From Hoylesella nanceiensis DSM 19126 = JCM 15639 (GTDB lineage: Bacteria > Bacteroidota > Bacteroidia > Bacteroidales > Bacteroidaceae), in contig NZ_KB904331.1 of the NCBI RefSeq assembly GCF_000379965.1, positions 248,001-312,000 on the forward strand: a stretch of 64,000 nt of DNA, in the 5' to 3' direction. The position numbers were made by a program, and so were the translations under genes. Below, piece after piece: positions 1,287 to 56,911 of the stretch (its first letter is position 1; each line of letters begins with the position of its first letter). The notes under the pieces are model-generated. The model was not told the origin of the DNA and made no database searches. It saw nothing but the letters and a program-made list of their open reading frames with translations.

Positions 1287-1374
1287 AATTGCATTGTTAT
1301 TACGCCTTAAAAGCATTGAGTTTGCGCCCTAAAAGCATCGCTATTAGCATGCAAAAGCATTGCCTTTTCTATCT
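1287..1374. repeat. 22-bp palindrome array, locus A (4 units)
   Basis: Four units begin at 1287, 1309, 1331 and 1353, exactly 22 bp apart. Each is a variant of AAWWGCAWTGCWWTT plus a 7-bp linker; units 2-4 start AAAAGCAT. It lies between the convergent ends of the MFS gene and caxA, just past the terminator. See the finding on the whole family. Confidence 0.8.
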
Positions 1375-1419
1375 GCTTAAGTTACATTCTATTCGCAATC
1401 TCTTTCTTTTATAAGAGGA

Positions 1420-2349
1420 TTAGATATGCATAAAAAGATAGCTCATATAAGCAAAGAAAACACCAATAAGCACCAAGCCTTCCCAGCGTTTAATGGTGTA
1501 TTTGGTATAAGAGAACACCCATAAAAGCAACATTGACACGATGAGAAGAGCAAAATCGAGCATGGTGATGCCGTTGATTTTCATTGGAGAGATGACACCT
1601 GTTAAACCCAAGATAGCTAAGATATTGAACACGTTTGAGCCCAACACATTACCTATTGCAATGCCACTATTACCTTTTTTTGCCGCTACTACGCTTGTAG
1701 CAAGCTCGGGAAGCGATGTTCCACCCGCAACAATTGTAAGTCCAATAACAGCCTCACTTACTCCAAGTTGTTGTGCAACGAAGGTGGCAGAGTCTACAAA
1801 TAGGTTACTTCCAATAATCAATCCTGCCAAACCGCCAATGATAAATACAACCGATTTCAAAACACTTGTATTCGCTAACGGCTCATTCTCATCTTCATCT
1901 CCACTCTTTGCATTCTTCAATGTGAATAAAAGGAAACCTAAGAAAGTGGCAAAAAGAATGGCTGCATCTATTCTACTGATGCTTCCATCGAAGCATAATC
2001 CAAGTAAAAGCAATGATGCGAAGCAAGCAAAAGGAATGTCTTTTCGCACTGTTCCTTTAAGAATAGCAATGGGAGTAACGGCTGCCGACACGCCAACAAT
2101 GAGCAAAGCATTGAAGATATTGCTACCAACTACGTTACCAATAGCAAGGTCGGGGGTTCCTTTTATTGCAGAAACAAAGCTCACAAAGAACTCAGGCATT
2201 GACGTTCCCGCTGCAACTATCGTTAAACCGATAACGATTTGCGACACTTTCATGCGTTGAGCAAGAGCTACAGAGCCTTTTGTTAAGATGTCTGCGCCTA
2301 ATAAAACCACTGCTACACCTATTATAATAAGGAGTATGTTTAATATCAT
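1420..2349 (-). CDS. Calcium/sodium antiporter, CaxA/YrbG type
   Basis: Membrane cation exchanger of the Na/Ca exchanger superfamily. Two homologous halves are visible: GTSMPE at residues 48-53 and GGTSLPE at 209-215, the acidic alpha-repeat motifs that line the ion path, separated by an acidic loop (residues 149-160, rich in D/E) as in other two-repeat members. I start it at the ATG at 2349 (MILNILLIII), where family homology begins; an in-frame ATG at 2409 would add 20 residues that look unrelated. The length of 309 aa is normal. No clear -7 box lies directly upstream. Ion specificity is inferred from the family only. Confidence 0.9.
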   Translation of the reverse strand: MILNILLIIIGVAVVLLGADILTKGSVALAQRMKVSQIVIGLTIVAAGTSMPEFFVSFVSAIKGTPDLAIGNVVGSNIFNALLIVGVSAAVTPIAILKGTVRKDIPFACFASLLLLGLCFDGSISRIDAAILFATFLGFLLFTLKNAKSGDEDENEPLANTSVLKSVVFIIGGLAGLIIGSNLFVDSATFVAQQLGVSEAVIGLTIVAGGTSLPELATSVVAAKKGNSGIAIGNVLGSNVFNILAILGLTGVISPMKINGITMLDFALLIVSMLLLWVFSYTKYTIKRWEGLVLIGVFFAYMSYLFMHI

Positions 2350-2499
2350 AATATTCGAATAAATAAATCTGTATTGTAAAAAAAGATATAAAACAAAAGC
2401 ATCCACCATTGTCTTTCTAAGTCGAAAGGTATTAGAGGACGCTTTGTTTTGATGCTAACAACGTTGTTATTAGTAAATATTTTGTGGTTTGTTGCTTTG

Positions 2500-2544
2500 C
2501 TATCGGGGACTTTCACAAGGTTTTCCCCATACGAAAGTCGATAG
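2500..2544. repeat. Imperfect inverted repeat between DUF5606 gene and caxA
   Basis: CTATCG (2500-2505) and ACTTTC (2509-2514) pair with CGATAG (2539-2544) and GAAAGT (2533-2538), leaving a 3-nt bulge and an 18-nt loop. It lies 3' of the DUF5606 gene but has no T-run, so it is not a typical terminator. An open frame of 69 codons crosses it; I do not regard that as a gene. Confidence 0.4.
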
Positions 2545-2559
2545 TTTTCCAACAAATTA

Positions 2560-2985
2560 TTATTCTTCTTCGCTAGAAGGATCGTTATTTAACAACTCTT
2601 CGAAATCGGTATAACCATTCTTTACCAATAGGTTGTACCATTGAATAAGCTTCTTAATGTCGCTATCGTGTACACGATCACGATCGTAAGAAGGAAGAAC
2701 AGTAGAGAAATACTCGTGAAGTTCTGCCTTAGAAGCTTTTTTATAGTTAAACGAACTCTCTTTGCTTTGTTCTTTTTCACCTACACTTTTCAACACTTTC
2801 CACAAAGGAATATCGTCTGCATCGGTATACATTGCAATGTCAGAGAGGCTTGTTACTCTATCAGTTGCAAAGATAGGAAGGCGTTTATGTTGGTCGTCTA
2901 GGGTCTCAGCAATAAGTCCTGTATTGCTACGTGATACCAATTTATAAAGTCCGGGCTTACCCGCAATAGATAAAATTGTCTCCAT
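2560..2985 (-). CDS. DUF5606 family protein
   Basis: A 141-aa cytosolic protein of the Bacteroidetes family DUF5606; function unknown. It opens with METILSIAGKPGLYKLVS, a conserved start in this family, and has a basic helical stretch in the middle and an acidic tail (DPSSEEE). It is the last gene of the nusB-yajC-ybbR-coaE set and begins 16 nt after the coaE stop, so it is probably co-transcribed. Family assignment is from remembered pattern, and no role should be read from the neighbours alone. Confidence 0.82.
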   Translation of the reverse strand: METILSIAGKPGLYKLVSRSNTGLIAETLDDQHKRLPIFATDRVTSLSDIAMYTDADDIPLWKVLKSVGEKEQSKESSFNYKKASKAELHEYFSTVLPSYDRDRVHDSDIKKLIQWYNLLVKNGYTDFEELLNNDPSSEEE

Positions 2986-3001
2986 AATCTTTCTAATGTT
3001 T

Positions 3002-3595
3002 TTATTCTTGTATTTTACTTAATATTTCGTTTAACTGTATTTCTACGTCTTTTATTCCGTCATTCACCAACTCAAAGTCGGCTTTTGCAATGACTTCATC
3101 TTGATTGAGCTGCTTTGTTATCCACTGAAGGGCGGCTTCTCGGGTGATATTGTCACGCTGCATAATGCGTGATATCCTTGTTTCTAAAGGTGCACTAACG
3201 CATACTACAAAATCAATATCGATTCTTTTATCGAACCCACTGTCGTATAATATGGCGCTTTCAATCCACTCTAATCCGCTATTTTCAAAGTCTTTTGCCA
3301 CCGCAGGGTGCACAATATCATTTAAAGCAGTAGCATTTTGAGGCGAAGCTAATAAGAACTTAGCCAACAATGCTTTATTTAGGACATCGTTTTGATAAGC
3401 CTCTTTTCCCACCAAATCAACGATTTTCTGCTTCACTTCTTCGTTTTCACGCATCAGTTTCTTTGCAGAACGATCGCAATCGAATACCTCTATTCCCTTT
3501 TGTTGAAGTATTTTCGCAACGAAACTCTTTCCTGTTCCAATGCCACCTGTTAACGCAATAACTCGCTTGGCGGGCTTTTCATTTAGCAGTTTCAT
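3002..3595 (-). CDS. coaE: Dephospho-CoA kinase
   Basis: Catalyses the last step of coenzyme A synthesis, ATP-dependent phosphorylation of dephospho-CoA at the 3' hydroxyl, in the cytosol. The P-loop GGIGTGKS is at residues 17-24, followed by VFDCDRSAKKLM with the Asp of the CoA-binding region and a later RIMQRDNITREAA segment typical of CoaE. At 197 aa it is family length. Its start overlaps the ybbR stop by 4 bp (ATGA type), which indicates translational coupling. The ybbR-coaE order is common in Bacteroidetes. Confidence 0.95.
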   Translation of the reverse strand: MKLLNEKPAKRVIALTGGIGTGKSFVAKILQQKGIEVFDCDRSAKKLMRENEEVKQKIVDLVGKEAYQNDVLNKALLAKFLLASPQNATALNDIVHPAVAKDFENSGLEWIESAILYDSGFDKRIDIDFVVCVSAPLETRISRIMQRDNITREAALQWITKQLNQDEVIAKADFELVNDGIKDVEIQLNEILSKIQE

Positions 3596-8062: not shown

Positions 8063-8150
8063 AAGAGCAATGCTTTTACTGCATAAAAGTAATGGTATTA
8101 CACCTCAAAAGCAATGCTTTTATAGTGTAATACCATTGTTTTTTTATTCT
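8063..8150. repeat. 22-bp palindrome array, locus B (4 units)
   Basis: Units start at 8063, 8085, 8107 and 8129. Unit 3 is a perfect palindrome apart from its centre, AAAAGCAATGCTTTT. The array lies in the 334-nt convergent gap between the S4-domain gene and the GT25 gene; apart from this and the decayed array I see nothing else in the gap. Confidence 0.82.
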
Positions 8151-17944: not shown

Positions 17945-19015
17945 TTATTGTTCAACAAACAAATCTTTCATTGTTCGAAGCTTGTTTTCTGTTTCTTGCC
18001 ACTCGTTTTCTTCCTTACTGGCTGCCAATAAGCCACCGCCTGCATAAAAGGTGATGTGCTCTTGGGCTATATTTAAGCAACGCAAAGTTACAAAAAGATG
18101 TGTTTTAAAATTATTTACGTTCATCATTCCCACAAAACCACTATAATATTTGCGGTGATACCCCTCATTCTTTAAAATAAACTCTTTGGCCTCTTGCTGT
18201 GGCAAACCACACACTGCGGGGGTGGGATGCAAGCTATTTAAAAGCTTTCCTAACTGTGTTTTGTTGGTAAGATGAAAGGATATGTCGGTTCGAAGATGTG
18301 CTAATTCGGCAGAAAATACCGTGTGTGGCTTTGAAATGCTTATCTTGGCATCTACCTTCTTCAAACAATCTACGATGTAATCGGTCACTATTTGTTGTTC
18401 TTTTTGCTCTTTCTCTTGCCAAACAACTGCCAAATCGTGGGGCGACTCGCCTGTTTTGAGAGAGCTAAACCATTCTTTTTCTATTTTCTGAGTTCCCGCA
18501 AGAGCCATTGTTTGCCACCCTTCTTCGGTCTGTTCTATCAGAGTTTCGGGCGTAGCCATTAGCCAAAGACCTGTTTTAGGGGTGTTGATTAGCGCAACAA
18601 ACAAATGGGGATAGCGTGCGCAAGCGTGCAAAAAGAGTTGCTTTGCCTGCTCTTCGGTGATATGAAGTGGGTATTCTTCGGTGCGAGAAAGCACCAACTT
18701 ACTGAATTGTTGCTTTAACAATGCAGTGTGAAACTTACGAAATACCTCTGCATAGGCTTTGCGTTGATGTTCGTTTTGGGGTTGATGAAGATACAATTCG
18801 CAGCTTTCTAAAGTGGGAAAGCTATGTGTTGAGCACTCATCGGGGTGTAAAACAACGATAGGACAATTGGTTGTGGGCGAAAAAGGGGCTATAACAAAGC
18901 CTTCCTCGCTTGCCAATTGCTCGAAAGAATACAGTTCTTTAATGCTTCCTTTGTGCTGTTCTACACAATGAAAGCAATTGCTATCGGGTGTTTTAAACCA
19001 AGTGTAACCTATCAT
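17945..19015 (-). CDS. menF: Isochorismate synthase
   Basis: Converts chorismate to isochorismate, the first dedicated menaquinone step. Chorismate-binding family: FSKLVLSRTEEYPL, LMATPETLIE, MALAGTQ, HTVFSAELAHLRTD, then SLHPTPAVCGLPQQEAKEFI and a C-terminal Gly-rich FYAGGGLLAASKEENEW. At 356 aa it is shorter than E. coli MenF, mostly at the N-terminus. Its start overlaps the menI stop by 4 bp. Confidence 0.93.
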   Translation of the reverse strand: MIGYTWFKTPDSNCFHCVEQHKGSIKELYSFEQLASEEGFVIAPFSPTTNCPIVVLHPDECSTHSFPTLESCELYLHQPQNEHQRKAYAEVFRKFHTALLKQQFSKLVLSRTEEYPLHITEEQAKQLFLHACARYPHLFVALINTPKTGLWLMATPETLIEQTEEGWQTMALAGTQKIEKEWFSSLKTGESPHDLAVVWQEKEQKEQQIVTDYIVDCLKKVDAKISISKPHTVFSAELAHLRTDISFHLTNKTQLGKLLNSLHPTPAVCGLPQQEAKEFILKNEGYHRKYYSGFVGMMNVNNFKTHLFVTLRCLNIAQEHITFYAGGGLLAASKEENEWQETENKLRTMKDLFVEQ

Positions 19016-19428
19016 TTATTGCCTCGAACAATAACATAATTGGTGACATTCACCACTGATATAAGCTCGTCTGCGCTGTTGCAAATATCTACTCGCCACA
19101 CATGCAACAAGCGTCCTTTATTAATTAGGTGTGCAGTTGCGGTTACGGTGTCGCCTTCTACCACTGCTTTTACGTGGTTTCCGCTAACATTAATGCCCAC
19201 GCTTATATCGTCAGGACATAGAGCTAACGAGCCAACTCCTGCCAAATTCTCTGCAAGAGCAAGGGTTGCACCACCACTTAAGAAACCAAATGGCTGACGA
19301 TTGCGTTCGTCTACTCGCATAGTGGCTTTGCAAGTGTTAGGATCATCGGTTGAAAAAAACTCCATTCCTAATGTTAACGACAAGCCTTTATCTTTCTCTA
19401 AAAGTCCTTTTACACCATCAATATTCAT
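19012..19428 (-). CDS. menI: Hotdog-fold thioesterase, probable DHNA-CoA thioesterase
   Basis: 138-aa PaaI/YdiI-type thioesterase. The core QPFGFLSGGATLALAENLAG aligns with the YdiI/MenI active-site helix, including the catalytic Glu of LAE; the usual His of LHGG is Ser here. It is the first gene of the men operon and overlaps menF by 4 bp, so hydrolysis of 1,4-dihydroxy-2-naphthoyl-CoA is the likely job, a step that otherwise has no gene in the operon. The role is inferred from fold and location; other acyl-CoA substrates are possible. Confidence 0.78.
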   Translation of the reverse strand: MNIDGVKGLLEKDKGLSLTLGMEFFSTDDPNTCKATMRVDERNRQPFGFLSGGATLALAENLAGVGSLALCPDDISVGINVSGNHVKAVVEGDTVTATAHLINKGRLLHVWRVDICNSADELISVVNVTNYVIVRGNK

Positions 19429-19551
19429 GTTGTTTACTTCTTATTTTAATATCATTATCAAGCACAAGGCAACGAATGTTACAAAAAATTGGAACCAAGA
19501 GTTTCTATTTTTCGAATTAAACAGAGCTCTTTCGTTGCCCTTGCTCTATTG

Positions 19552-19582
19552 CAAAGGTAAGAAAAAAGGCTATAAAAACAAA
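19552..19582 (-). promoter_or_regulatory. Promoter of the menaquinone operon
   Basis: Minus strand: TTTG (19582-19579), 19 nt, TACCTTTG (19559-19552), a near-ideal match. The predicted leader before menI is about 120 nt. No riboswitch fold was recognised in it. Confidence 0.75.
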
Positions 19583-19716
19583 GTTTTAGGAATGGTCTTT
19601 TACCCCTATTGTGGCACTATTACGAAAAAGAAGATTTATTTTTTCACTGCATCTCCTATTTTTCTTCTATACATTATATAAATAGGTGAATTGCAACGAC
19701 TTTGCAAATGGCTGGT

Positions 19717-19804
19717 AAAAGCTATGTTTTTAAAGCACAATAGCAATGCTTTTACATCTCAAAAGCATTGCTATTACACGCAAAAAGCTATCGTATTAGA
19801 ACGA
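19717..19804. repeat. 22-bp palindrome array, locus C (4 units)
   Basis: Units start at 19717, 19739, 19761 and 19783. Unit 3 reads AAAAGCATTGCTATT. It lies in the 419-nt gap between the men operon promoter and the 3' end of oxyR. Confidence 0.82.
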
Positions 19805-19847
19805 TAATACAAAAGGATTGAAAATGAAGTACAATGAAAGTGGCAAC

Positions 19848-20777
19848 CTATACCACTTTTTGTATTGTTTTTTTGAGTGCTAACATGTCTTCAGGAACAG
19901 ACATTTTCACTTCGTTTTCCACTAATTCTTTTATTGAAGTGCGCATAAAATTGGGCGAAGTAATCATCACTACATCACGTGTGGGCACTGGTATTGCGAA
20001 TGGACGAACAAGCTTTTTCTGCGATTCGCTTAGCTGATAAAGAGCCAATTCGGGGATAAATGTAACGCCTTTTCCGCTTTCTACCATTCTCATAAAGGTC
20101 TCAATGCTACCCAAGCTATAAGCTTTTTTGCTTGCAGTAGCCGACTTTAGGTGACAAAACTTCACTAATTGATCTCTAAAACAATGACCTTCGTCTAACA
20201 ACCACAAGTATTCATCTGCCAAATCGCTGGTCTTTATCGACGAATGTTGGTGCAATTCATCATTCTCTGCAATGTAAGTAAAGAACTGTTCGTAGAACAA
20301 ATGGTCGCAATTGAACTCTTCCATATCTTCTAAAAGGGCAAGAATTCCAGCATCAAGATCGCCTCTTTTCAAGGCTGTTTTAATCTCTTCGGTTTTCATT
20401 TCGCTGATTCTTACGTCCATATTAGGATACTTACTCATCAATTGAGGAAAGAAACGAGGAATGAGATAAGGTGCAATTGTGGGGATAATGCCTATCTTAA
20501 AGGTTCCAGTTAGTGAGTGTTTCTCTTCTTCAACCGCCTCTTTTAGCCTCTTAGCACGGCGCAACACGTTCCAAGCATTATCGATAACAAGCTTTCCAAT
20601 CTCTGTAGTTGTGATCGGTTGTTTCTTTCTATCGAATATTTTTACGCCCAATTCATCTTCTAACTTCTGAATCATTGAACTAAGAGTAGGTTGGGTTACA
20701 TTGCAATATTCGGCAGCTTTTGCAAAATGTTTGTGTCGATAAACGGCAATAATATATTCAAGTTGTTGTAAGGTCAT
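19848..20777 (-). CDS. oxyR: Hydrogen-peroxide sensor, LysR-family regulator OxyR
   Basis: LysR-type regulator with an N-terminal winged helix-turn-helix (MTLQQLEYIIAVYRHKHF, then AAEYCNVTQPTLSSMIQ) and a C-terminal sensor domain. Two cysteines at residues 199 and 208, in DEGHCFRDQ and KFCHL, sit at the positions of the redox pair of E. coli OxyR, so a peroxide-oxidised disulfide switch is expected. 309 aa is family length. It is divergent from sod-ahpCF, and an OxyR-like operator lies in the shared upstream region. In Bacteroidetes, OxyR controls ahpC, dps and related genes. Confidence 0.94.
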   Translation of the reverse strand: MTLQQLEYIIAVYRHKHFAKAAEYCNVTQPTLSSMIQKLEDELGVKIFDRKKQPITTTEIGKLVIDNAWNVLRRAKRLKEAVEEEKHSLTGTFKIGIIPTIAPYLIPRFFPQLMSKYPNMDVRISEMKTEEIKTALKRGDLDAGILALLEDMEEFNCDHLFYEQFFTYIAENDELHQHSSIKTSDLADEYLWLLDEGHCFRDQLVKFCHLKSATASKKAYSLGSIETFMRMVESGKGVTFIPELALYQLSESQKKLVRPFAIPVPTRDVVMITSPNFMRTSIKELVENEVKMSVPEDMLALKKTIQKVV

Positions 20778-20801
20778 TATCTTTTAGTTTTATCGTTTGT
20801 G

Positions 20802-20832
20802 CAAAGATACACATTAATTTATATCTAAACAA
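20802..20832 (-). promoter_or_regulatory. Promoter of oxyR
   Basis: Minus strand: TTG (20832-20830), 20 nt, TATCTTTG (20809-20802). The leader would be about 20 nt. Confidence 0.72.
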
Positions 20833-20916
20833 CGTGTTATATATCTTTTTTTACATGCAATTGCTTTCCTTTTGCTTCCGTAAAACATTGATAAACAAAG
20901 GGATTAAGCCACATAT

Positions 20917-20952
20917 ATAGATTTTATCTATTTACATATAGATTTTATCTGT
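20917..20952. promoter_or_regulatory. OxyR-type operator upstream of sod
   Basis: ATAG-N7-CTAT-N6-ATAG-N7-CTGT, with the N7 being ATTTTAT twice. This is close to the E. coli OxyR pattern of four ATAG/CTAT elements (inner gap 7 there, 6 here). It ends 22 bp before the sod -7 box. A closely similar dyad has the same spacing upstream of dps. Confidence 0.7.
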
Positions 20953-20974
20953 TTTATAGTTTTATAGTTATATC

Positions 20975-20982
20975 TAACTTTG
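20975..20982 (+). promoter_or_regulatory. -7 box of sod
   Basis: TAACTTTG, followed by CATC as at dps. No TTG stands at -33, which fits a promoter that depends on an activator bound just upstream. Confidence 0.65.
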
Positions 20983-21051
20983 CATCGTCTAAAAGAAATG
21001 ACAACGTAAAATAAAAAGTATAATATGTTATTAACAAAAATAGTATTTATG

Positions 21052-21636
21052 ATGACAATAGCAATGCCACAGTTACCTTATTCACCAAATGCTTTAGAGC
21101 CAGTGATAAGTGAACAGACAATAAACTATCATTACGGTAAACACCTTCAAGCGTATGTTAACACCTTAGGAACATTAGTTCAGGGTACAGAATTTGAAGG
21201 AAAGAGTGTTGATGAGATTGTTATGACAGCGCCAGATGGTCCTATCTTTAACAATGCAGGACAAACATTGAACCACGCTTTGTATTTTGGTCAATTCAAA
21301 TCACCTGTAAAAGATAACGTACCTACAGGCAAGCTTGCAGATGAAATCAATGCTACTTTTGGTAGTTTCGATGAATTTAAGAAGCAATTTTCACAAGCAG
21401 GAGCTACTCTTTTCGGTTCTGGTTGGGTTTGGTTAGCACAAGATAAAGACGGAAAACTAATCATTACAAAAGAGGCTAACGCTGGAAATCCACTTCGTCA
21501 CGGTCAAAATCCACTTATGGGTATTGATGTTTGGGAACACGCTTACTATCTAGATTATCAAAATAGACGTGTTGATCACCTTGCAGCAGTATGGGATATC
21601 ATCAACTGGGACGTTGTAGCTTCAAGACTTAAATAA
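21052..21636 (+). CDS. sodB: Superoxide dismutase, Fe/Mn family
   Basis: Cytosolic enzyme that dismutates superoxide to peroxide and oxygen. Family motifs: MPQLPYSPNALEPVIS start, HYGKHLQAYV with the first metal-binding His, FNNAGQTLNHALYF with the second His, FGSGWVWLA, and DVWEHAYYLDYQNRR with the Asp and His ligands. The Gln in AGQxxNH is typical of Fe or cambialistic enzymes. I chose ATG 21052 (MTIAMPQLPY) by analogy with Bacteroides SODs; ATG 21025 would add nine residues and has its own support from a leader element shared with ahpC. Probably followed by ahpCF. Confidence 0.93.
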   Translation: MTIAMPQLPYSPNALEPVISEQTINYHYGKHLQAYVNTLGTLVQGTEFEGKSVDEIVMTAPDGPIFNNAGQTLNHALYFGQFKSPVKDNVPTGKLADEINATFGSFDEFKKQFSQAGATLFGSGWVWLAQDKDGKLIITKEANAGNPLRHGQNPLMGIDVWEHAYYLDYQNRRVDHLAAVWDIINWDVVASRLK

Positions 21637-21671
21637 AGAGAATTCTTTACGTAACAAATAATATAAAGATA

Positions 21672-21720
21672 AGGTGAGCGGTGTTTTATCGTCGAAAAAG
21701 ATAATAAATAGCTCTCACCT
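21672..21720 (+). terminator. Stem-loop between sod and ahpC
   Basis: AGGTGAG (21672-21678) pairs with CTCACCT (21714-21720), and TTATC (21686-21690) with GATAA (21700-21704) inside. No T-run follows, so it may be a partial terminator, an mRNA stabiliser or a processing site. No -7 box for ahpC was found downstream, so ahpC may be read through from sod. Confidence 0.45.
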
Positions 21721-21810
21721 ACCCCATTAAAACAGATTCATCTCTATTGAAGAGAAAAGTAATAGTAAAACAGAAATTATAACATAACAACGTAAATACA
21801 ATAAGAAATT

Positions 21811-22377
21811 ATGAAGACAATTATCAATACTCAAGTTCCTGAGTTTAAAGTTCAAGCCTTCCAAAATGGCGAATTCAGAACAGTTACAAACGAAGATATC
21901 AAAGGTAAATGGGCAATCTTCTTCTTTTACCCAGCTGACTTCACTTTTGTTTGCCCTACAGAGCTTGTAGACTTGGCAGAAAAGTACGAAGAATTGAAGA
22001 AAATGGGTGTTGAAGTTTTCTCAGTAAGTACTGACACTCACTTCGTACATAAGGCTTGGCACGATGCTTCTGACAGCATTAAAAAGATTCAATATACAAT
22101 GCTTGCAGACCCATTAGCAACTCTTTCTGAAGCTTTTGGTGTATATATTGAAGAAGAAGGTATGGCTTATCGTGGTACATTCCTTGTTGATCCAGAAGGC
22201 AAAATCAAATTAGCTGAGATTCAAGACAACAGTATTGGTCGCAATGCAGAAGAGCTTGTACGTAAGGTTGAGGCTGCTCAATTCGTAGCAAATCACCCTG
22301 GTGAGGTTTGTCCTGCAAAGTGGAAGAAAGGTCAAGAGACATTAACTCCAAGCATAGACCTTGTTGGTAAGATCTAA
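21811..22377 (+). CDS. ahpC: Alkyl hydroperoxide reductase subunit C (2-Cys peroxiredoxin)
   Basis: Reduces hydrogen peroxide and organic peroxides. The peroxidatic Cys48 lies in DFTFVCPTEL and the resolving Cys in GEVCPAKW near residue 168, as in typical AhpC; 188 aa is standard. The reductant is AhpF, encoded next. ACAACGTAAA stands 14 nt before the ATG, the same as before the upstream sod ATG. Third gene of the oxidative-stress island behind oxyR and sod. Confidence 0.97.
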   Translation: MKTIINTQVPEFKVQAFQNGEFRTVTNEDIKGKWAIFFFYPADFTFVCPTELVDLAEKYEELKKMGVEVFSVSTDTHFVHKAWHDASDSIKKIQYTMLADPLATLSEAFGVYIEEEGMAYRGTFLVDPEGKIKLAEIQDNSIGRNAEELVRKVEAAQFVANHPGEVCPAKWKKGQETLTPSIDLVGKI

Positions 22378-22394
22378 GTTTATTATTTATTAAT

Positions 22395-22449
22395 GAGCGT
22401 TCCCTTTTCTTTTGCATCCTGAGGCGTAAGAAATGGGAACTCTTTTTTT
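22395..22449 (+). terminator. Terminator or attenuator between ahpC and ahpF
   Basis: GTTCCC (22399-22404) pairs with GGGAAC (22435-22440), flanked by a weaker GA/TC pairing, and TCTTTTTTTA follows. Leaky termination here would give more AhpC than AhpF. Confidence 0.65.
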
Positions 22450-22494
22450 ATTGAACATTTACGTAACACATATACCTAACTAAAATAAAAGATT

Positions 22495-24057
22495 ATGCTA
22501 GACAAACAAATAATAGAACAAGTAAGAGGCATTTTCAGTGCTCTTGAAGGCCAATATACCTTATTATTAACTTTCAACAAAGCATTTGAAGAACTCGATA
22601 ACATGCGTTCTTTCTTGTCAGACTTCGCTTCTTCATCTGAAAAGATAAGCGTAGAAGAGCAAGAAACCACAGAAAATACACTTTATTTCGATATCGTTAA
22701 GAATGGAACTCCAACAGGAATCCGTTTCAGAGGCATTCCTAATGGACACGAGTTTACATCTCTTCTTCTTGCAATTCTTAACTCAGACGGTAAGGGAAAG
22801 AATCTTCCTGATGCCAATATATGCAAACGTGTGGCTGCACTTAATGGCGAAATACATATTCAAACCTATGTATCTCTAACCTGTACCAATTGTCCTGACG
22901 TGGTACAAGCATTCAATATCATGGCTTTGAACAATCCTTCTATCACCCATGAGATGATTGATGGAGCTCTATTTCAAGCAGAAGTGGAAGCAAAACACAT
23001 TCAAGGTGTACCCGCAGTGTTCATTGATGGCGAGCTAGTTCATTCTGGTAAGGGTGAATTTGGAGAGCTTTTACAGAAATTAGAAGATAAGTTTGGATCT
23101 TCAACTCTAAGCAATGAGCCTCAAGAAGAGCAGAACTATGATGTAATTGTATTGGGTGGAGGTCCTGCAGGCTCATCTGCTGCCATCTATTCAGCACGCA
23201 AAGGACTTAAAGTAGCTATCATTGCAGAAAGCATTGGTGGACAAGTTAAGGAAACAGTAGGCATCGAAAACCTTATATCTGTGCCTCAAACAACTGGTGC
23301 AAAGCTTGCTGCTGACTTAAAAGAGCACGTTCGCACTTATCCAATTGATGTGTTTGAAAACCGCAAAATAGAAACTGTTTCTTTAAAAGAAGCACAAAAA
23401 CGCATTGTAGTTAGAGGTGGAGAAACTTTCGTTGCGCCTGCAGTTATCATTGCAACTGGTGCAAGTTGGCGTAAACTTAATGTGGAAGGCGAAAGCGATT
23501 ACTTAGGTAAAGGTGTGCATTTCTGCCCTCATTGCGATGGACCTTTCTACAAAAACAAGGCAGTTGCAGTGATTGGAGGAGGTAACTCGGGTATAGAAGC
23601 AGCAATAGACCTTGCTAATATCTGCTCAAACGTTACTGTTTTGGAATTTGCTGACACACTAAGAGCCGACGAAGTGCTACAAAACAAGGCTGCAAGTATG
23701 CCAAACATACAAATCTTTAAGTCATCTCAAACAACTCAAGTAATAGGAAATGGCACTAAGGTTACAGCCTTAAAGGTGAAAGATAGAGTTACAAATGAAG
23801 AACGAGAGATTGCTCTTGACGGTGTATTTGTACAAATAGGACTATCGGCTAACAGTGCTCCTTTCGCAGAAGAGCTAACACTTACTAATGCAAGAGAAAT
23901 CATTATCGATGCTCATTGCCGTACTTCTATCCCTGGAGTGTATGCAGCTGGCGACGTATCGAGCGTGCCTTACAAACAAATTGTCATTGCTATGGGAGAA
24001 GGAGCAAAAGCTTCTTTATCTGCATTCGAAGACAAAATGCGTGGCGTTATCGGTTAA
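22495..24057 (+). CDS. ahpF: Alkyl hydroperoxide reductase subunit F
   Basis: FAD/NADH-dependent disulfide reductase that recycles AhpC. The N-terminal double thioredoxin-like domain holds CTNCPD near residues 130-135. The C-terminal thioredoxin-reductase-like part has FAD-binding VIVLGGGPAGSSAAIYSA, the redox-active CPHCDGP, NADH-binding AVIGGGNSGIEAA and the closing PGVYAAGDVSSVPYKQI. 520 aa is family length. 117 nt after ahpC with a leaky-looking hairpin between. Confidence 0.96.
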   Translation: MLDKQIIEQVRGIFSALEGQYTLLLTFNKAFEELDNMRSFLSDFASSSEKISVEEQETTENTLYFDIVKNGTPTGIRFRGIPNGHEFTSLLLAILNSDGKGKNLPDANICKRVAALNGEIHIQTYVSLTCTNCPDVVQAFNIMALNNPSITHEMIDGALFQAEVEAKHIQGVPAVFIDGELVHSGKGEFGELLQKLEDKFGSSTLSNEPQEEQNYDVIVLGGGPAGSSAAIYSARKGLKVAIIAESIGGQVKETVGIENLISVPQTTGAKLAADLKEHVRTYPIDVFENRKIETVSLKEAQKRIVVRGGETFVAPAVIIATGASWRKLNVEGESDYLGKGVHFCPHCDGPFYKNKAVAVIGGGNSGIEAAIDLANICSNVTVLEFADTLRADEVLQNKAASMPNIQIFKSSQTTQVIGNGTKVTALKVKDRVTNEEREIALDGVFVQIGLSANSAPFAEELTLTNAREIIIDAHCRTSIPGVYAAGDVSSVPYKQIVIAMGEGAKASLSAFEDKMRGVIG

Positions 24058-24096
24058 TTCTGAAAGTACTTTATATAAAGGTGTTTCACGATAGTT

Positions 24097-24162
24097 ATTT
24101 ATTTTGTCTATAACACTATAGATAGAACCATTTGTAGGCAGTTTATCTTTATTGTAACTTTG
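24097..24162 (+). promoter_or_regulatory. OxyR-like operator and promoter of dps
   Basis: The dyad TCTAT-N6-ATAGA (CTAT 24108-24111, ATAG 24118-24121) is the same as at sod, and the outer elements are degenerate. The promoter is TTTG (24131-24134), 20 nt, TAACTTTG (24155-24162). The distance from the ATAG to the -7 box is 37 nt, identical to that at sod. Confidence 0.66.
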
Positions 24163-24217
24163 CATCATCAATAAAACAATAAGATAAAAATCACAAATAA
24201 AAGAAAGGATAATAATT

Positions 24218-24703: not shown

Positions 24704-24756
24704 ACGATATTAAGTAGATTAGAATACAAAAAATAGCGAACAGATTTATTATTAAA

Positions 24757-24796
24757 GAGGGTTACACACTCATCAAGAGTGGTGTTGCCCTCATTT
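24757..24796 (+). terminator. Terminator of dps
   Basis: GAGGG...ACACTC pairs with GAGTGGTGTTGCCCTC (24777-24792) with small mismatches, and a short T-run follows (ATTTTG). Confidence 0.75.
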
Positions 24797-24881
24797 TGCA
24801 TTGAAATTAGGTTGTAAAAGCATTGAGTTTAGACTCTAAAAGCATTGAGTTTGCACTGCAAAAGCATTGCAATTACACCAT
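24794..24881. repeat. 22-bp palindrome array, locus D (4 units)
   Basis: Units start at 24794, 24816, 24838 and 24860; units 2 and 3 are nearly identical in their first 15 bases (AAAAGCATTGAGTTT). It lies between the dps terminator and the DoxX gene, ending 35 nt before that ATG. Confidence 0.8.
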
Positions 24882-24915
24882 AATATATATACAAACAATT
24901 AAAAAGCATATTACA

Positions 24916-25918: not shown

Positions 25919-25950
25919 GAATTTAATAATCTAGATTAATACTCAAAAAA

Positions 25951-26970: not shown

Positions 26971-27058
26971 AAAAGCATTGTTTTTGGTATCTAAAAGCAG
27001 TGCTATTACGCCCTAAAAGCATTGCTTTTTGCAAGCAATTTCATAGCTTTTACAAGCG
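26971..27058. repeat. 22-bp palindrome array, locus E (4 units)
   Basis: Units start at 26971, 26993, 27015 and 27037. Unit 3 is AAAAGCATTGCTTTT, a complete palindrome. It lies between the two divergent promoters of the RDD and SpoIIM genes without touching either. Confidence 0.83.
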
Positions 27059-32001: not shown

Positions 32002-32133
32002 AAAAGAATATCTCTTTCAAAATAAAAACATTGCTTTTCATTCACAAAAGCAGTGCTTTTACGACGCAAAAAGATAGCTATTGCAATGCAAAAGAATAGC
32101 TTTTAAGATTCAAAAGAATATGTAATTAAAATG
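32002..32133. repeat. 22-bp palindrome array, locus F (6 units, inside an operon)
   Basis: Units start at 32002, 32024, 32046, 32068, 32090 and 32112, all 22 bp apart; units 2-4 are the best matches (AAAAGCAGTGCTTTT in unit 3). It fills most of the 188-nt gap between moxR and DUF58 and is the longest array in the window. Confidence 0.8.
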
Positions 32134-33494: not shown

Positions 33495-33572
33495 TATTGT
33501 TTTGCTTTCGGCAAACAACGGCTTTGCAATAAGAATGTAATTACAAATTCATTAAATGTAAAAAAAAAGTCG

Positions 33573-33580
33573 TAAGTTTG
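33573..33580 (+). promoter_or_regulatory. -7 box of the C1 peptidase gene
   Basis: TAAGTTTG, 26 nt before the ATG; the -33 region has no clear TTG. Confidence 0.5.
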
Positions 33581-33606
33581 CATAAAACAAACATTTTAAC
33601 GATAAT

Positions 33607-35013: not shown

Positions 35014-35075
35014 TTTTATATTTTGATCATAAACAAAAAGTAATTTTGTTCTCAAAACAATGTATTCGAAATTGG

Positions 35076-35107
35076 GGCAGACTCTTTTTAGAGTCTGCCT
35101 TTTTTGT
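35076..35107 (+). terminator. Terminator of the C1 peptidase gene
   Basis: GGCAGACTC (35076-35084) pairs with GAGTCTGCC (35091-35099), a 9-bp stem with a 6-nt loop, followed by TTTTTTG. Confidence 0.92.
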
Positions 35108-35162
35108 TTTTGTATAACAAACTCATCGCCTTCATTATCAATAGCCTCCACCACTCTATTCT

Positions 35163-35250
35163 AAAAGCATTGCTATTGCACAATAAAAGCAATGTTTTTA
35201 CACTTCAATATCAATGCAATTGCATCATAAAAGCAGTGCAATTGCAAGCT
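35163..35250. repeat. 22-bp palindrome array, locus G (4 units)
   Basis: Units start at 35163, 35185, 35207 and 35229; unit 1 is AAAAGCATTGCTATT. It lies between the peptidase terminator and the promoter of the FMN-binding gene. Confidence 0.82.
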
Positions 35251-35322
35251 TTAAAAACGTCTTTTAAAATATTAAGATAAAAATATCGCTCTCAAAAACC
35301 CCTCTAACTACACAATTATTTA

Positions 35323-35330
35323 TATCTTTG
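35323..35330 (+). promoter_or_regulatory. -7 box of the FMN-binding/SusCD operon
   Basis: TATCTTTG, with no good TTG at -33. The leader to the FMN-binding gene would be about 90 nt. Confidence 0.5.
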
Positions 35331-35424
35331 TAATGGATAACTTATATTGGTTTCCTTTGTACCATCATTGAAAGTGAGATGAATTCGAGGTACAAGATGT
35401 TTTTGTATTATAATGTTTTAGACA

Positions 35425-35826
35425 ATGAAAAGAAAGTATTTTAGTTTAATTTTAGGCGCAAGTTTCGCCCTATTCTCACTCACTTTGATGAGTGCATCAA
35501 CCGAAGATCAGGTTATAACACAAGAAAATGGAGTGACTATCGTTAACACTACCAGTTTAACAAAAGACGTAAAAGGATTTAAAGGTGCAACACCTGTAAA
35601 GATTTTCATCAAGAAAAACAAAGTAATAAAGGTAGAAGCCCTTCCCAATAGAGAAACTCCTAAGTTCTTTGCACGCTTAAAAGATCTCTTAACTTCATGG
35701 GACGGAAAGACCGTAAGCAAAGCAAGTAAGACTGAACCTGACGCTGTTAGCGGTGCAACTTACTCGTCAAACGCAGTTATAAAGAACGTCCAAGCAGGCT
35801 TAAAGTATTACCAAGATAATAAATAA
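35425..35826 (+). CDS. Exported FMN-binding domain protein
   Basis: 133-aa protein with a signal peptide (about residues 1-25) and one FMN-binding domain. DAVSGATYSSNAVIKNVQAG near residues 106-125 holds the SGAT motif; in NqrC- and RnfG-type proteins the Thr (here T112) carries covalently bound FMN put on by ApbE. No apbE lies in the window. The gene is 23 nt upstream of a SusC-like receptor, so the two are probably co-transcribed. A flavin electron carrier in the periplasm is the likely class; partner unknown. Confidence 0.85.
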   Translation: MKRKYFSLILGASFALFSLTLMSASTEDQVITQENGVTIVNTTSLTKDVKGFKGATPVKIFIKKNKVIKVEALPNRETPKFFARLKDLLTSWDGKTVSKASKTEPDAVSGATYSSNAVIKNVQAGLKYYQDNK

Positions 35827-35849
35827 TTCACCCTTTAAAATCTTCTTCA

Positions 35850-38573
35850 ATGCTATTATTTCGTTCCATCTCTACTCTTTCGCTCCTCACTTATTGCGCA
35901 ATAGCTTTGGGTAATGGGGTTTATAGTTCGGTAGAAGCTACCGATTCTACAAAACACAAACGCAAAAAAGTAGTGAAGAAGACGACTTATAGCACTAAGA
36001 AGCTGAAGAGTGAGAGCTTCGATAAACGCTTTATTGCCGCCCCATTAGATATTCTTCGTGGTAAAGTGGCAGGTGTAAACATTGCCCATAGCGGTGCCGA
36101 ACGCCTCGCAATGCTCAACAGTGTGCGTGTTAGAGGAACCACTTCGGTAACTGCAGGCAATGACCCTTTGGTGATTATCGATGGTGTTTCGAGCGATCTT
36201 TCGTCTCTTTCAACCATCTACCCCGCAGATATTGCCTCGTTCACTATATTGAAAAACGCCTCAGAAACAGCCATTTATGGTTCAAGAGGTGCATCGGGGG
36301 TGATCTTAGTAACAACCAAAAAGGGTGCAGCAGGAAAGTTTAAGATTTCATACGACACCAATATTGGCGTTGAACACACCACTTCTGAGATCGAAGTTTT
36401 AAACGGATCACAATATATTTCCACTGCCAAAGCACTCAACCAGTTTGCCATTGACGGCGGATATAACACCAACTTTCAAAAAGAAATTACTCGAGTTGGA
36501 TTCATACAGAACCACCATCTTGCCTTTAGTGGTGGTGTTGATGAATCGAACTATCGTGCTTCTGTGAGCTATTCGGGGCACGAAATGGTTGTAAAGAACA
36601 ACAACTATAACAATTTTACAGCCAAATTCGACCTCAATCAAAAAGCATTCGACAACGTATTAACCGTTAATTTAGGCATATTTGGCTCGTCTACATCTGT
36701 CAAAAACCTTGCAGACATACGCAAACTCATTTATTCTTCGATAGCACAAAACCCCACTTATCCTGCGCATCGCAATGCTTCTGGGAACTGGGATCTTAAC
36801 TCTGGGGCCTCACAAATACCTCCTCCACTTGCTTATAACAGCGTTCAAGACCACGAAAATGGTGTTAGTGTCATCACACATATCAACTTTGACGTGGCAG
36901 TTGCACAACCTTTGCATCTAAAACTATTCAGTTCCTATGCCTTTAACAGCTTAGAACACAATCAATATTTCCCAGTTGCAACCGAAGCACAAGGCAAAGC
37001 TTATCGACAAGAACGCAAAACAGAAGACTGGCTGATTAATTTTGCAGCGCAATTCCATCAAAAATGGGGTGCACATGTGTTGGATTTAGAGGCTCAAACC
37101 GAATATCAAAAGAGCACAAGAACGGCTTTTAACACCACGGTAAAGGGCTTTATGAATGACGAATGGGGCTATAATAACCTCGGAGCAGGCTCTATTCACC
37201 CTCAAGAAGGCACATTTAGCAGTTATGCAAGTCCGTCTTTACTATCATTTTTGGTTACTTCTAAATATAAACTGCTCAACACCTACACTTTAAGTGCAAC
37301 CCTTAGAGCAGATGGTTCGTCGCTTGTTGCACCCAAAAACCGCTGGGGTTTCTTCCCTTCTGTTGCACTCGAATGGGATATAAAGAGAGAACCTTGGTTA
37401 AGATACAATCGTGTTATCAACGCATTAACACTCAAAACGAGTTATGGTATGAGTGGTAACTTAGGCGGAATACAATCGTATAACGCTCAATTTGCGCAGC
37501 TTCCTGCTGGAGTTGTGCCCTATTTGGGAGTTCCAACCATTACTCTTGGACACTTAAAGAATATCAATCCCGACTTAAAATGGGAAAATAAAAACTCGTT
37601 TAACATTGGAGTTGAAACAGCATTGTGGCAGAATAGGCTCGTATTCACAGCCGAATACTATTATTCTAAGACCCGAAACATGCTTTATAACTATCGAGTT
37701 AGCGTGCCACCATTCGTTTATAACACGCTATTAGCAAACATTGGCAGCATGAGTAACAGCGGTTTTGAGTTGGGAATGGGCTTCACTCCTATTGCAACCA
37801 AAGACCTATCGCTCAACATTAACTTGAATGTTGCCTTCCAAAAGAATAAACTTTTGTCGCTAAGTGGTACCTATAGAGGTGAAAATTTATCATCTCCTAA
37901 CATCACTCCGATAGCTTCTTTAGATGGAGCAGGGTTCCATGGAGGTCAGAATAACATTGTATATCAAATCGTAGGACAGCCTCTTGGCGTGTTTTATCTA
38001 CCTCATTCAAAGGGATTAGCAACCAATCAAGATGGCTCAAAGCGATATAATATTGTCGACTTAGATAACAATAACGAGATAAATATTGAAGATGGAGGCG
38101 ACAGATACATTGCAGGTCAAGCCATTCCCAAAGCAACTTTGGGCTCAAACATCAGTATTCGTTACAAGAACTGGGACGCATCGCTCCAAATGAATGGTGC
38201 TTTTGGTCATAAAATCTACAACGCAACAGCTTTAAGTATGATGAATATGAGTAGCTTTCCTGATTATAATGTAATGAGAAAAGCACCCGAAATGAACCTA
38301 AAAGACCAAAGAGCCACCGACTATTGGCTTGAAAAAGGCGACTATCTCAACTTCGATTATCTTACATTGGGCTATAATTTCGATATAAAAAGTAAGTTTA
38401 TTAGCGCACTTCGACTATCACTTAGCGTGAATAACTTAGCCACCATAACCAGTTATAGTGGTGTTTCGCCAATGATAAATAGCTTCATTGTGGGCAAAAC
38501 ACTTGGCATTGAAGATAAAAATACTTATCCAACCTACCGCAGTTACTCAATAAGTGTGGGTATTCAGTTCTAA
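35850..38573 (+). CDS. SusC-like TonB-dependent receptor lacking the N-terminal extension
   Basis: 907-aa outer-membrane receptor. A signal peptide-like start is followed by a short Lys-rich linker (about residues 35-55), then directly the plug: LDILRGKVAGVNI, VRGTTSVTAGNDPLVIIDGV, and ILKNASETAIYGSRGASGVILVTTKKG; the barrel ends in YSISVGIQF. The carboxypeptidase-regulatory-like domain and the VVVGYG-type segment that open typical SusC proteins are absent, and no separate ORF supplies them. A TonB box is not obvious. SusD follows 19 nt after. Substrate unknown. Confidence 0.88.
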   Translation: MLLFRSISTLSLLTYCAIALGNGVYSSVEATDSTKHKRKKVVKKTTYSTKKLKSESFDKRFIAAPLDILRGKVAGVNIAHSGAERLAMLNSVRVRGTTSVTAGNDPLVIIDGVSSDLSSLSTIYPADIASFTILKNASETAIYGSRGASGVILVTTKKGAAGKFKISYDTNIGVEHTTSEIEVLNGSQYISTAKALNQFAIDGGYNTNFQKEITRVGFIQNHHLAFSGGVDESNYRASVSYSGHEMVVKNNNYNNFTAKFDLNQKAFDNVLTVNLGIFGSSTSVKNLADIRKLIYSSIAQNPTYPAHRNASGNWDLNSGASQIPPPLAYNSVQDHENGVSVITHINFDVAVAQPLHLKLFSSYAFNSLEHNQYFPVATEAQGKAYRQERKTEDWLINFAAQFHQKWGAHVLDLEAQTEYQKSTRTAFNTTVKGFMNDEWGYNNLGAGSIHPQEGTFSSYASPSLLSFLVTSKYKLLNTYTLSATLRADGSSLVAPKNRWGFFPSVALEWDIKREPWLRYNRVINALTLKTSYGMSGNLGGIQSYNAQFAQLPAGVVPYLGVPTITLGHLKNINPDLKWENKNSFNIGVETALWQNRLVFTAEYYYSKTRNMLYNYRVSVPPFVYNTLLANIGSMSNSGFELGMGFTPIATKDLSLNINLNVAFQKNKLLSLSGTYRGENLSSPNITPIASLDGAGFHGGQNNIVYQIVGQPLGVFYLPHSKGLATNQDGSKRYNIVDLDNNNEINIEDGGDRYIAGQAIPKATLGSNISIRYKNWDASLQMNGAFGHKIYNATALSMMNMSSFPDYNVMRKAPEMNLKDQRATDYWLEKGDYLNFDYLTLGYNFDIKSKFISALRLSLSVNNLATITSYSGVSPMINSFIVGKTLGIEDKNTYPTYRSYSISVGIQF

Positions 38574-40273: not shown

Positions 40274-40383
40274 AATAGCATTGCTTTTACGCTATAATTA
40301 CATTGCTTTTGAGGTGCAATTGCAATCCTTTTGCAAGGTAAAAGCATTGCTTTCAAATTTTAATACCATTGCACTGCATTGGT
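40274..40383. repeat. 22-bp palindrome array, locus H (4 units, a fifth in the lptD 3' end)
   Basis: Units start at 40274, 40296, 40318 and 40340; a fifth, at 40362, falls in the last codons of the LptD-like gene and encodes its C-terminal ...AVQWY. Unit 1 is AATAGCATTGCTTTT. Confidence 0.8.
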
Positions 40384-49147: not shown

Positions 49148-49235
49148 AATAATTATGCTTTTGCATCTTAAAAGCATTGCTATTGGCATGTAATAGCATT
49201 GTAATTACAAGGTAAAAGCTATGCTATTGCAAAGC
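49148..49235. repeat. 22-bp palindrome array, locus I (4 units)
   Basis: Units start at 49148, 49170, 49192 and 49214; unit 2 is AAAAGCATTGCTATT. It lies in the 614-nt gap between the fimbrillin terminator and the SusC gene; apart from these two and AT-rich leader I see no other feature there, and no promoter box for SusC. Confidence 0.81.
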
Positions 49236-51729: not shown

Positions 51730-51817
51730 AATAGCATTGACTTTAACTTGTAATTGCAGTCATATTACACTGCAATAGCATTGTTTTTAGAGGGCAATAG
51801 CTATGCTTTTTATTTCA
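51730..51817. repeat. 22-bp palindrome array, locus J (4 units)
   Basis: Units start at 51730, 51752, 51774 and 51796; these mostly use AATAGC instead of AAAAGC. An isolated single unit (AAAAGCATTGAA) stands at 51639. The array lies between the peptide promoter and the acyl-CoA dehydrogenase terminator; nothing else is seen in that gap. Confidence 0.78.
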
Positions 51818-55652: not shown

Positions 55653-55683
55653 ATTATATATTATAATTGTGAAATTTTCTGCT

Positions 55684-55714
55684 CAAAAATAGTCATTTTT
55701 TGTATTCTGACAAA
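55684..55714 (-). promoter_or_regulatory. Promoter of the etfB operon
   Basis: Minus strand: TTTG (55714-55711), 19 nt, TATTTTTG (55691-55684). Leader of about 30 nt. GTGC-containing repeats lie just upstream (55731-55813). Confidence 0.72.
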
Positions 55715-55730
55715 AAAAACACTGTTTAAA

Positions 55731-55813
55731 GTGCACAATATTATTTAAGATGTGCACCGCATTAGATTATTGTGCGATATTTTTAGGTAGACAATAGATT
55801 ATTTAGTGCGATA
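55731..55813. repeat. GTGC-containing repeats upstream of the etfB promoter
   Basis: TAGATTATT followed by GTGCGATA occurs twice (55763-55779 and 55795-55813, with 2 extra nt), and GCACAAT (55733-55739) faces ATTGTGC (55769-55775). They may be regulator sites. The 3' hairpin ATAGATT/AATCTAT (55794-55822) might serve as a weak rsgA terminator. Confidence 0.35.
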
Positions 55814-55836
55814 CCAATCTATGCAAAATGTATTAT

Positions 55837-56769
55837 TTAATAGGCTTCTCTATATTTGTTTCCGTCTTTATCTTCAAGCATACTTAAGTAGGAATTGTAT
55901 CTACTTTCTGCTATATAGTGATTTTCGAGTGCTTTTAAAACGGCACAACCAGGCTCGTGTGTGTGCGAACAGTTGTTGAATTTACAGTCTTTTGAGAACT
56001 CAAAAATCTCTTTAAAGTAGCTACAAATCTCTTCAGGTTCCATGTTGAAAGAGCCGAAACCCTTTATTCCTGGGGTGTCGATGATGTACCCTCCCTCTTC
56101 AATAGGAAGCATTTCGCTGAAGGTTGTGGTGTGCATTCCAGTGTTATGAACGTCTGAAATTTCCGAAGTTCGCATATAATTGGCAAGTAACACCTTATTT
56201 ATAAGGGTGCTTTTGCCCACTCCACTGTTGCCACTGAGCACAGTTATTTTATTAAACAATTGTTTTTTAAGCTCTTCTACGCCCTCTCCTGTCTCTGCAG
56301 AGATTGCCAAACACTCGTAACCAATGGTTTCGTAGAGATGAATAAGCATATCTTGATAGTGCAATTCATCTTCTTGCAATAGGTCTTTCTTATTAAAAAC
56401 AAGCGTAACGGGAATATTATAAGCCTCTGCAGACGCCAAGAAGCGATCGATAAAGCCAGTTGATGTCTGTGGATAGTTTACAGTTACAATTAAAAAAGCC
56501 TGATCTACATTGGCGGCTAAGATATGGCTTTGCTTACTTAGGTTCTGCGATTTACGCACAATATAGTTTTTTCTGTCTTCTATTGCTGTGATAAACGCTG
56601 TTCCTTCGTTGTTGATTTGCAATTCTACTCTATCGCCAACAGCAACGGGATTGGTACTTTTGATGTCTTGAAGACGAAACTTTCCTTTGATTTTACTTTC
56701 AATAATTCGTCCGTCTTCGGTCTTTACTGAATACCAACTGCCTGTGTTTTTTATTACTAATCCGTGCAC
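55837..56769 (-). CDS. rsgA: Ribosome small subunit-dependent GTPase A
   Basis: 310-aa circularly permuted GTPase that checks late 30S maturation. N-terminal OB fold, then the G4 motif VFNKKDLL before G1 [11 protein letters not shown] and G3 DTPGIKGFG, the permuted order of the family; a zinc-binding C-terminal region holds [14 protein letters not shown]. No clear promoter box stands directly upstream; the palindrome array K lies there. Confidence 0.96.
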
Positions 56770-56823
56770 TTTTATGGATAACTTGTTTCTGGTTTTTATA
56801 AAAAAGAAAAGATATCTATTGAA

Positions 56824-56911
56824 GAAAGCATTGCTTTTCGTAAGTAAAAGAAGTGCTATTACCTCTCAATTACTTATCAATTAAGCCTCAAAAGCATTGC
56901 TTTTTCGCTCT
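56824..56911. repeat. 22-bp palindrome array, locus K (4 units)
   Basis: Units start at 56824, 56846, 56868 and 56890; units 1 and 4 contain AAAGCATTGCTTTT and unit 4 is a complete palindrome. It lies in the 206-nt gap between rsgA and frr. Confidence 0.83.

Follow-up and report, generated by a model that had tools for sequence, protein, structure and literature searches.

Bacterial tandem repeats of constant size and variable sequence were reportedly treated in an earlier paper by Subirana and Messeguer in J Bacteriol in 2020. Sites of another kind, those of Noc and SlmA, are single short palindromes that are dispersed over the chromosome and are scarce near the terminus. Among the constant-size repeats, a class of 20-23 nucleotides is described in many bacterial groups, and its authors suggest that a protein polymerises on this DNA and stabilises the nucleoid (PMC8161180). 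The search used there requires at least four regular repeats, and the accessible text of the paper makes no mention of palindromes or Prevotella; the main text of PMC6749651 contains neither Prevotella nor the stem Bacteroid-. In Porphyromonas gingivalis, BrickBuilt is a 23-nucleotide repeat within a miniature inverted-repeat transposable element (MITE) that has a leader, a tail and terminal inverted repeats (PMC4596501). Lrp operators, in the accessible parts of two papers, are degenerate inverted repeats of 13-17 bp, spaced two or three helical turns from centre to centre, and Lrp octamers wrap about 100 bp of DNA (PMC2995911, PMC10201364). The subject of the present analysis is a stretch of 64,000 nucleotides from the genome of Hoylesella nanceiensis DSM 19126 (the window), together with the family of palindrome arrays that it carries.

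The window holds 11 arrays, each made of four degenerate 15-bp palindromes (AAWAGCAWTGCTWTT, with the half-site AAWAGCA) that are joined by 7-bp linkers and follow one another at a step of exactly 22 bp (Table 1). From the pattern of the DNA, we consider it fairly probable that each array serves as a platform on which a single homodimeric protein docks.

Units, phase and number

The first-pass annotation, made from the letters of the window, had placed 11 arrays in it with every step at 22 bp, and both the positions and the steps were borne out. The start of array F had been put at 32002; the unit there scores 5.6 bits, and four good units begin at 32024. Four units per array is the usual count, as had been proposed, with the qualification that the first unit of D and the third of K are weak. 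With a position matrix built from these units themselves, pairs of matches in the window were separated by 22 bp in 31 cases, by 44 bp in 20 and by 66 bp in 10; of the remaining distances up to 120 bp, none had more than 2 pairs, and no twelfth array was seen in the window. Tandem Repeats Finder called a 22-bp period at some of the window arrays only, and Rfam returned no match in the window at its gathering scores.

Table 1. Palindrome arrays of the window, with positions counted from its first nucleotide
Array	Position	Units	Gene setting	Sister species G141
A	1287..1367	four	convergent gap	orthologous
B	8063..8143	four	convergent gap	orthologous
C	19717..19797	four	co-directional gap; adjoins LysR-type regulator gene	orthologous
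D	24794..24874	four, first weak		one extra 22-bp step
E	26971..27051	four	divergent gap, RDD / SpoIIM genes	
F	32024..32104	four; weak additional unit at 32002	MoxR / DUF58 gap	
G	35163..35243	four	gap between C1-type peptidase and FMN-binding genes	
H	40274..40354	four	convergent gap	lacks two units (44 bp)
I	49148..49228	four		
J	51730..51810	four		
K	56824..56904	four, third weak	frr / rsgA gap	

The same phase was found throughout the genome that holds the window (2.65 Mb in 12 contigs). A variable-gap pattern, GCATTGCWWTTN{0,30}AAWWGCAW, gave 69 matches in the whole genome (30 forward and 39 reverse, some places being matched on both strands), 64 of which had a length that corresponds to a period of 22 or 44 bp, while the same pattern read backwards gave none. 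For a sample of 464 kb, made up of the window plus 20 other 20-kb stretches at roughly even steps, four-unit runs were scored with a matrix first fitted to the window arrays and afterwards refined on its own hits. At a threshold of at least 34 bits, 61 arrays were found at 22 bp, as against none at periods of 16-21 and 23-30 bp and none in the reversed sequence. The enrichment of 22-bp spacing over other spacings, on which the annotation had let its case depend, is therefore present, and chance AT-rich DNA is excluded as an explanation. A somewhat looser cut gave 62 arrays in the same 464 kb, or 134 per Mb, which by extrapolation corresponds to about 350 arrays in the genome.

The number of units is constrained as well. 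Mean scores over the 61 arrays were +14.7 to +16.7 bits for units 1 to 4, and fell to -12.7 and -12.3 bits for the neighbouring registers 0 and 5, which score like background and exceeded 8 bits in none of the 61 arrays. The count was exactly four in 58 of 64 runs in this genome; for the sister species G141 the figure was 33 of 38, and for H. marshii, scored with its own matrix, 10 of 14. An earlier, cruder chaining had given four units in 53 of 63 runs. The units of one array resemble each other little more than those of different arrays (core identity 0.724 within arrays and 0.697 between them), as if each had been drawn nearly independently from a single motif. A small shared orientation of the units within an array was nevertheless detected, because an expectation-maximisation split of the arrays into two orientations (34 and 27) had a log-likelihood of -3335, compared with -3372 to -3392 in within-array shuffles.

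Constraint on the palindromes and possible modes of action

The sister species is approximately 93% identical over the aligned parts of the window, and the comparison covers A to H of the 11 window arrays. In nine arrays, six in the window (A, B, C, E, F and G) and three elsewhere in the sample (D and H were excluded for length differences of 22 bp and 44 bp, respectively), 37 of 540 core sites (6.9%) were changed, compared with 47 of 189 linker sites (24.9%) and 158 of 1143 flank sites (13.8%). The difference between core and linker is highly significant (P = 5e-10), and the same order of core and linker is seen when arrays A to H are pooled (core 10.2%, linker 27.7%, flank 12.1%). As a separate observation, the linkers of the nine arrays change more than their flanks (P = 3e-4).

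Palindromes could also act as hairpins, either in RNA, where they would serve as a terminator, stabiliser or processing site, or as cruciforms in DNA. Nine of the 11 window arrays do fold better than shuffled sequences, with z-scores below -1.5, but such scores follow from the palindromic units alone, since the motif itself is palindromic. Complementary pairs within units numbered 1197, as against 1239 expected from shuffled halves, and at the same score threshold there were 4.91 pairs per unit compared with 5.08 in simulations, only 2% of which were as low. One bad half-site is tolerated, and two less often. Units of the same array had lower reverse-complement similarity and higher direct similarity to each other than units of different arrays. 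Base-pair covariation is absent or negative both within and between units, and the RNA hairpin was rejected on these grounds despite its promising folding scores; we regard an RNA or cruciform element as hardly credible.

Another possibility is a bend that is independent of sequence, in which phased A/T tracts would curve the DNA with no specific reader. This would agree with the AA/TT steps that recur approximately every 11 bp inside an array. The central GCA/TGC bases of the palindrome are constrained, however (0.71-0.86), and several of the 22-bp arrays found elsewhere do not consist of A-tracts, which makes this explanation very unlikely.

A protein-binding platform, which the first-pass annotation had put forward as one of two ideas, gains support from these results, because the core is conserved and the linker is not, because phase and count are strict, and because covariation of the type expected for RNA is lacking. 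On this model, each 15-bp palindrome would take one dimer, and the 22-bp step, being two helical turns, would bring all four dimers to the same helix face. With their eight subunits, the dimers would probably assemble cooperatively and bend or wrap some 80 bp of DNA. The purpose would be chromosome-wide, such as organising the nucleoid, insulating transcription units from one another, or coupling division to chromosome position, and not the control of single genes.

The geometry brings to mind the Lrp/AsnC proteins, one octamer (four dimers) of which could bind and wrap each array in the manner of the feast/famine regulators. The Lrp geometry as given in the accessible parts of the literature fits phased palindrome arrays (PMC2995911, PMC10201364). 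Exactly one AsnC_trans_reg match was found in each of the window's genome, the sister species and H. marshii. The helices, on the other hand, do not appear to track the motif. The comparison covered the Lrp proteins of the window's genome, H. marshii and the genome G040, and used the putative DNA-reading helix. Only the SGAAIHQRIQKL type is present in the window's genome and only the SRAAIHQRVQHL type in H. marshii, yet both genomes have arrays with the AAAGC-type word; in G040 the two types occur together, with the same helices, and no AAAGC pair at 22 bp is found there. On this indirect comparison of protein sequences, we judge an Lrp/AsnC reader improbable. That the arrays may work like an Lrp platform, by analogy, is kept as a description, apart from the question of their being Lrp operators. 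In H. marshii, where a single lrp gene was found, one array (G229:C1:1728345-1728429) is located some 500 bp upstream of it.

Placement, distribution and spread

When open reading frames were called by a simple longest-frame rule, 57 of the 61 arrays were in gaps, so the earlier statement that the arrays are confined to gaps is largely, though not entirely, correct. The presence of an array rises with gap length, from 6 of 51 in the 110-200 bp range to 22 of 30 in the 400-600 bp range, convergent gaps included, and the rise is seen in all orientation classes. Among gaps of at least 110 bp, an array was present in 34 of the 96 that are co-directional, in 13 of the 23 that are convergent and in 9 of the 25 that are divergent, and one convergent gap held two. 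Avoidance of promoters and terminators had also been claimed. For terminators it holds at best loosely: a strong hairpin that by eye resembles a terminator precedes array A by about 35 bp, and a promoter and terminator scan of positions 19000-38000 gave nothing decisive. Two of the sampled stretches were free of arrays (L113 and L128). The second of these (contig C5, 100001-120000) carries conjugative-transposon genes, namely TraG, TraJ, TraM, a relaxase and a coupling protein. An exact search of IMG/VR viral contigs with a two-unit pattern found no match.

Comparison of orthologous gaps, which had been suggested as a check, was made over 100 kb of alignment with the sister species: 12 arrays are present in aligned blocks here and 11 there, and 11 of the 12 are common to both, the twelfth (H) being shortened in the sister species. 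As a side observation, six of the 21 internal ends of these alignments are within 252 bp of an array (L115, L117, L118, L119, L126 and L130). Boundaries of rearrangements or insertions may fall preferentially in gaps with an array, although the preference of arrays for gaps could by itself explain this.

In the sister species, array density drops three-fold around the inferred terminus. On its contig 1, the 320 kb sampled from 400 to 960 kb (16 stretches) held 13 arrays, compared with 55 in 414 kb elsewhere (21 stretches, with 6 kb counted twice where two stretches overlap; P = 1e-5), or 0.33 and 0.72 arrays per large gap, respectively. The array-poor region is taken to include the terminus because the cumulative GC skew of contig 1 peaks there, near 720-760 kb; dnaA is on another contig. 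Twenty stretches fetched later agree, with 7 arrays in 10 stretches and 28 in the other 10, in a choice that was not blind, the hit list being known.

Among other genomes, a model of the array (R1) matched 80 of 198 in the genus, the window's own included (E <= 1e-4, strict filters). In a first sample at E <= 0.001, matches were found in 12 of 40 genomes, all of them in the genus and the window's own among them, and in none of the 16 from other families; 6 of 12 genomes reached through named loci also matched. Two of the genome searches scored 150 candidates each, and their match lists are lower bounds. The AAAGC-type word is wider than one species, since it was found in the window's genome, the sister species, P. 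brunnea, H. marshii and B. xylanisolvens, and the pattern AAAGC-N3-GCTTT was present in 4 of 12 genomes searched. In the 5.98-Mb chromosome of B. xylanisolvens this pattern occurs at eight places, all within 1.28 Mb of dnaA and seven of them between 40 and 748 kb. Four of these arrays were examined, two with three units and two with four; perfect half-sites were present in 11 of the 14 units, with centre and linker free, in a search whose pattern favours such sites. No common gene type was seen by eye among the neighbours of the B. xylanisolvens arrays, no family search being made.

The 22-bp period is special well beyond this motif, with sequences that differ between arrays. A motif-free lag analysis of 80 Bacteroidales loci gave 51 noncoding arrays at lag 22, compared with a mean of 2.1 and a maximum of 6 at the other lags from 15 to 30, lags 21-23 excepted; lags 21 and 23 gave 8 and 7, and lag 14 gave 9 in one run. 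The final count leaves out runs of N in H. marshii and B. xylanisolvens, which had produced spurious hits in the lag analysis. Palindromy was significant in 25 of the 51 arrays (P <= 0.05, column shuffling). By eye, H. marshii has one main array family and several minor ones, the 22-bp arrays of B. xylanisolvens are mostly unlike one another, and the word in G040 is of AAACG type. Near-identical AAAGC-type arrays were seen near contig ends (L223, L226, and contigs C243, C285, C354 and C402 of G234), as expected if repeats broke the assembly.

Array-free and unrelated versions of the same gap also occur. The MoxR-DUF58 gap is 189 bp long with array F here and 16 bp long, with no array, in H. 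marshii; among 27 such gaps of 60-1200 bp, three have a 22-bp array, one of them of low complexity. An unrelated 22-bp array occupies this gap in P. veroralis (L045:11018), where it is palindromic (P 0.05), and another in P. vespertina (L068:11018), where it is not significantly so.

These observations bear on the possibility that the arrays are a selfish dispersed repeat akin to a MITE or REPIN, whose four units would spread together and whose palindromic end units would act as terminal repeats. Gain and loss of arrays do occur, because five arrays have no counterpart in the sister species, because the density differs (134 per Mb here and 92 there) and because distant species lack arrays at the same gaps. 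A selfish repeat would also agree with the high density of arrays, mostly in gaps, with the contrast between the long and short MoxR-DUF58 gaps, and with the shared orientation of units and linkers beyond within-array shuffles. Some other 22-bp arrays in H. marshii have been copied between loci: a 540-bp element present at two loci (L163:18500-19040 and L165:18970-19466, 88.7% identity) contains a run of more than four 22-bp palindromic units of the TTATCCACGTCTGTATAA type, and arrays of the GCTGGTGAGCAGAAA type with similar ends, of about 5 and 3 units, are found at L160:7290-7420 and L170:3240-3340. The latter type suggests a mobile or copied element. The 61 arrays, however, have no conserved or shared flanks and no clear target duplication (the best offset tried gave 11, compared with 4.5 expected), 11 of the 12 in aligned blocks are shared with the sister species, none is in the conjugative-transposon stretch, and the footprint of conservation is concentrated on the palindrome. 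The mobile miniature repeat that had been offered as the alternative to protein binding thus finds no direct support in the shared positions, duplications or flanks, though slow spread is possible, and we regard a selfish origin as unlikely.

Several results weigh against the protein-docking platform or limit its reach. Single hits above 9 bits exceeded those in reversed sequence in the window's genome (173 and 69), the sister species (136 and 59) and H. marshii (115 and 76), so isolated units may exist and arrays are not the sole form; this excess counts in favour of a selfish repeat. For five arrays that lie just past the alignment ends, the sister species has no counterpart in the 800 bp around the matching end, which likewise favours spread. 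No match was found in 118 of the 198 genomes of the genus under the strict filters, and positions are not kept over distance, since of 75 other loci with the RDD-SpoIIM gap, home of array E here, only 1 has an array in it. The number four is looser outside the main family, where 28 of the 51 lag-22 arrays have exactly four units, 20 have more and 3 have fewer. Because other genomes carry many different 22-bp arrays, many readers or one fast-changing reader would be needed. The array-poor region of the sister species was chosen after the hits had been seen, is AT-richer, comes from one genome, and is placed at the terminus by GC skew only. No reader was found, the best geometric candidate having failed the indirect helix test.

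Beyond the docking platform itself, one may imagine a chromosome-organising system of the Bacteroidales in which four-dimer proteins occupy 4 x 22-bp platforms in most large gaps, scarce at the terminus, and do work like that of Noc or SlmA, with a word that changes between lineages and a geometry that stays constant. We offer this as a tentative and rather doubtful extension.

Comparison with known systems

Dispersed sites with a constant geometry and a constant count of four, and with a sequence that changes between lineages, are unusual in bacteria. Should their reader act on the nucleoid or on the timing of division, a major phylum of the gut and mouth would have a new kind of such protein. 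Searches of one open-access library for repeats of Prevotella, Bacteroides or Bacteroidetes gave no paper whose title and abstract describe these arrays. The arrays are not a CRISPR, as had been stated from the start: a CRISPR has near-invariant repeats with unique spacers between them, and the arrays consist of degenerate 15-bp units with 7-bp linkers (cas genes were not searched). Nor do they have the terminal inverted repeats and target site duplication of a MITE, as the flanks are unconserved and no clear duplication was found in the 61 arrays. BrickBuilt minisatellites are likewise tandem repeats of about two helical turns in a Bacteroidales genome, but their 23-nucleotide repeat is of unrelated sequence and lies inside a MITE, as far as the available account goes (PMC4596501).

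The arrays are like the sites of Noc and SlmA in being dispersed palindromes and, to judge from the sister species, perhaps also in being scarce at the terminus. They differ from those single short sites in being phased sets of four. The operators of Lrp/AsnC proteins, in the published sections consulted, share with the arrays the imperfect degenerate palindromes of about 15 bp, several per region, that are two turns apart, and the 22-bp step falls within the described geometry of phased 13-17 bp palindromes at two or three turns (PMC2995911, PMC10201364). In contrast to such operators, the arrays amount to hundreds of sites per genome, occur in convergent gaps as well, and have a motif that, in the genomes compared, does not follow the Lrp helix.

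By geometry, the arrays belong to the constant-size, variable-sequence class of Subirana and Messeguer, which is the closest described kind as judged from the accessible text (PMC8161180). As in that class, they are noncoding, span about two helical turns, occur as several unrelated families per genome and have sequences that tend to be species-specific; the lag-22 result gives one repeat length regardless of sequence, and the great majority of the 61 arrays are noncoding. Where the class is described by species-specific families with a conserved word, the AAAGC-type word here spans several species. Unlike the repeats described in the available account, the arrays have degenerate palindromic units, a fixed four in the main family, positions that in aligned blocks are mostly common to the sister species and an uneven distribution (PMC8161180). 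A known repeat family, which by the first-pass annotation would have counted against its reading, applies in part: constant-size, variable-sequence tandem repeats are described, but, in the sections consulted, not as palindromic four-unit arrays. To the known class the present analysis adds palindromy, the fixed number of four, evidence of conservation, evidence against RNA pairing and an uneven distribution along the chromosome, and the question of why many bacterial tandem repeats span two helical turns becomes directly testable.

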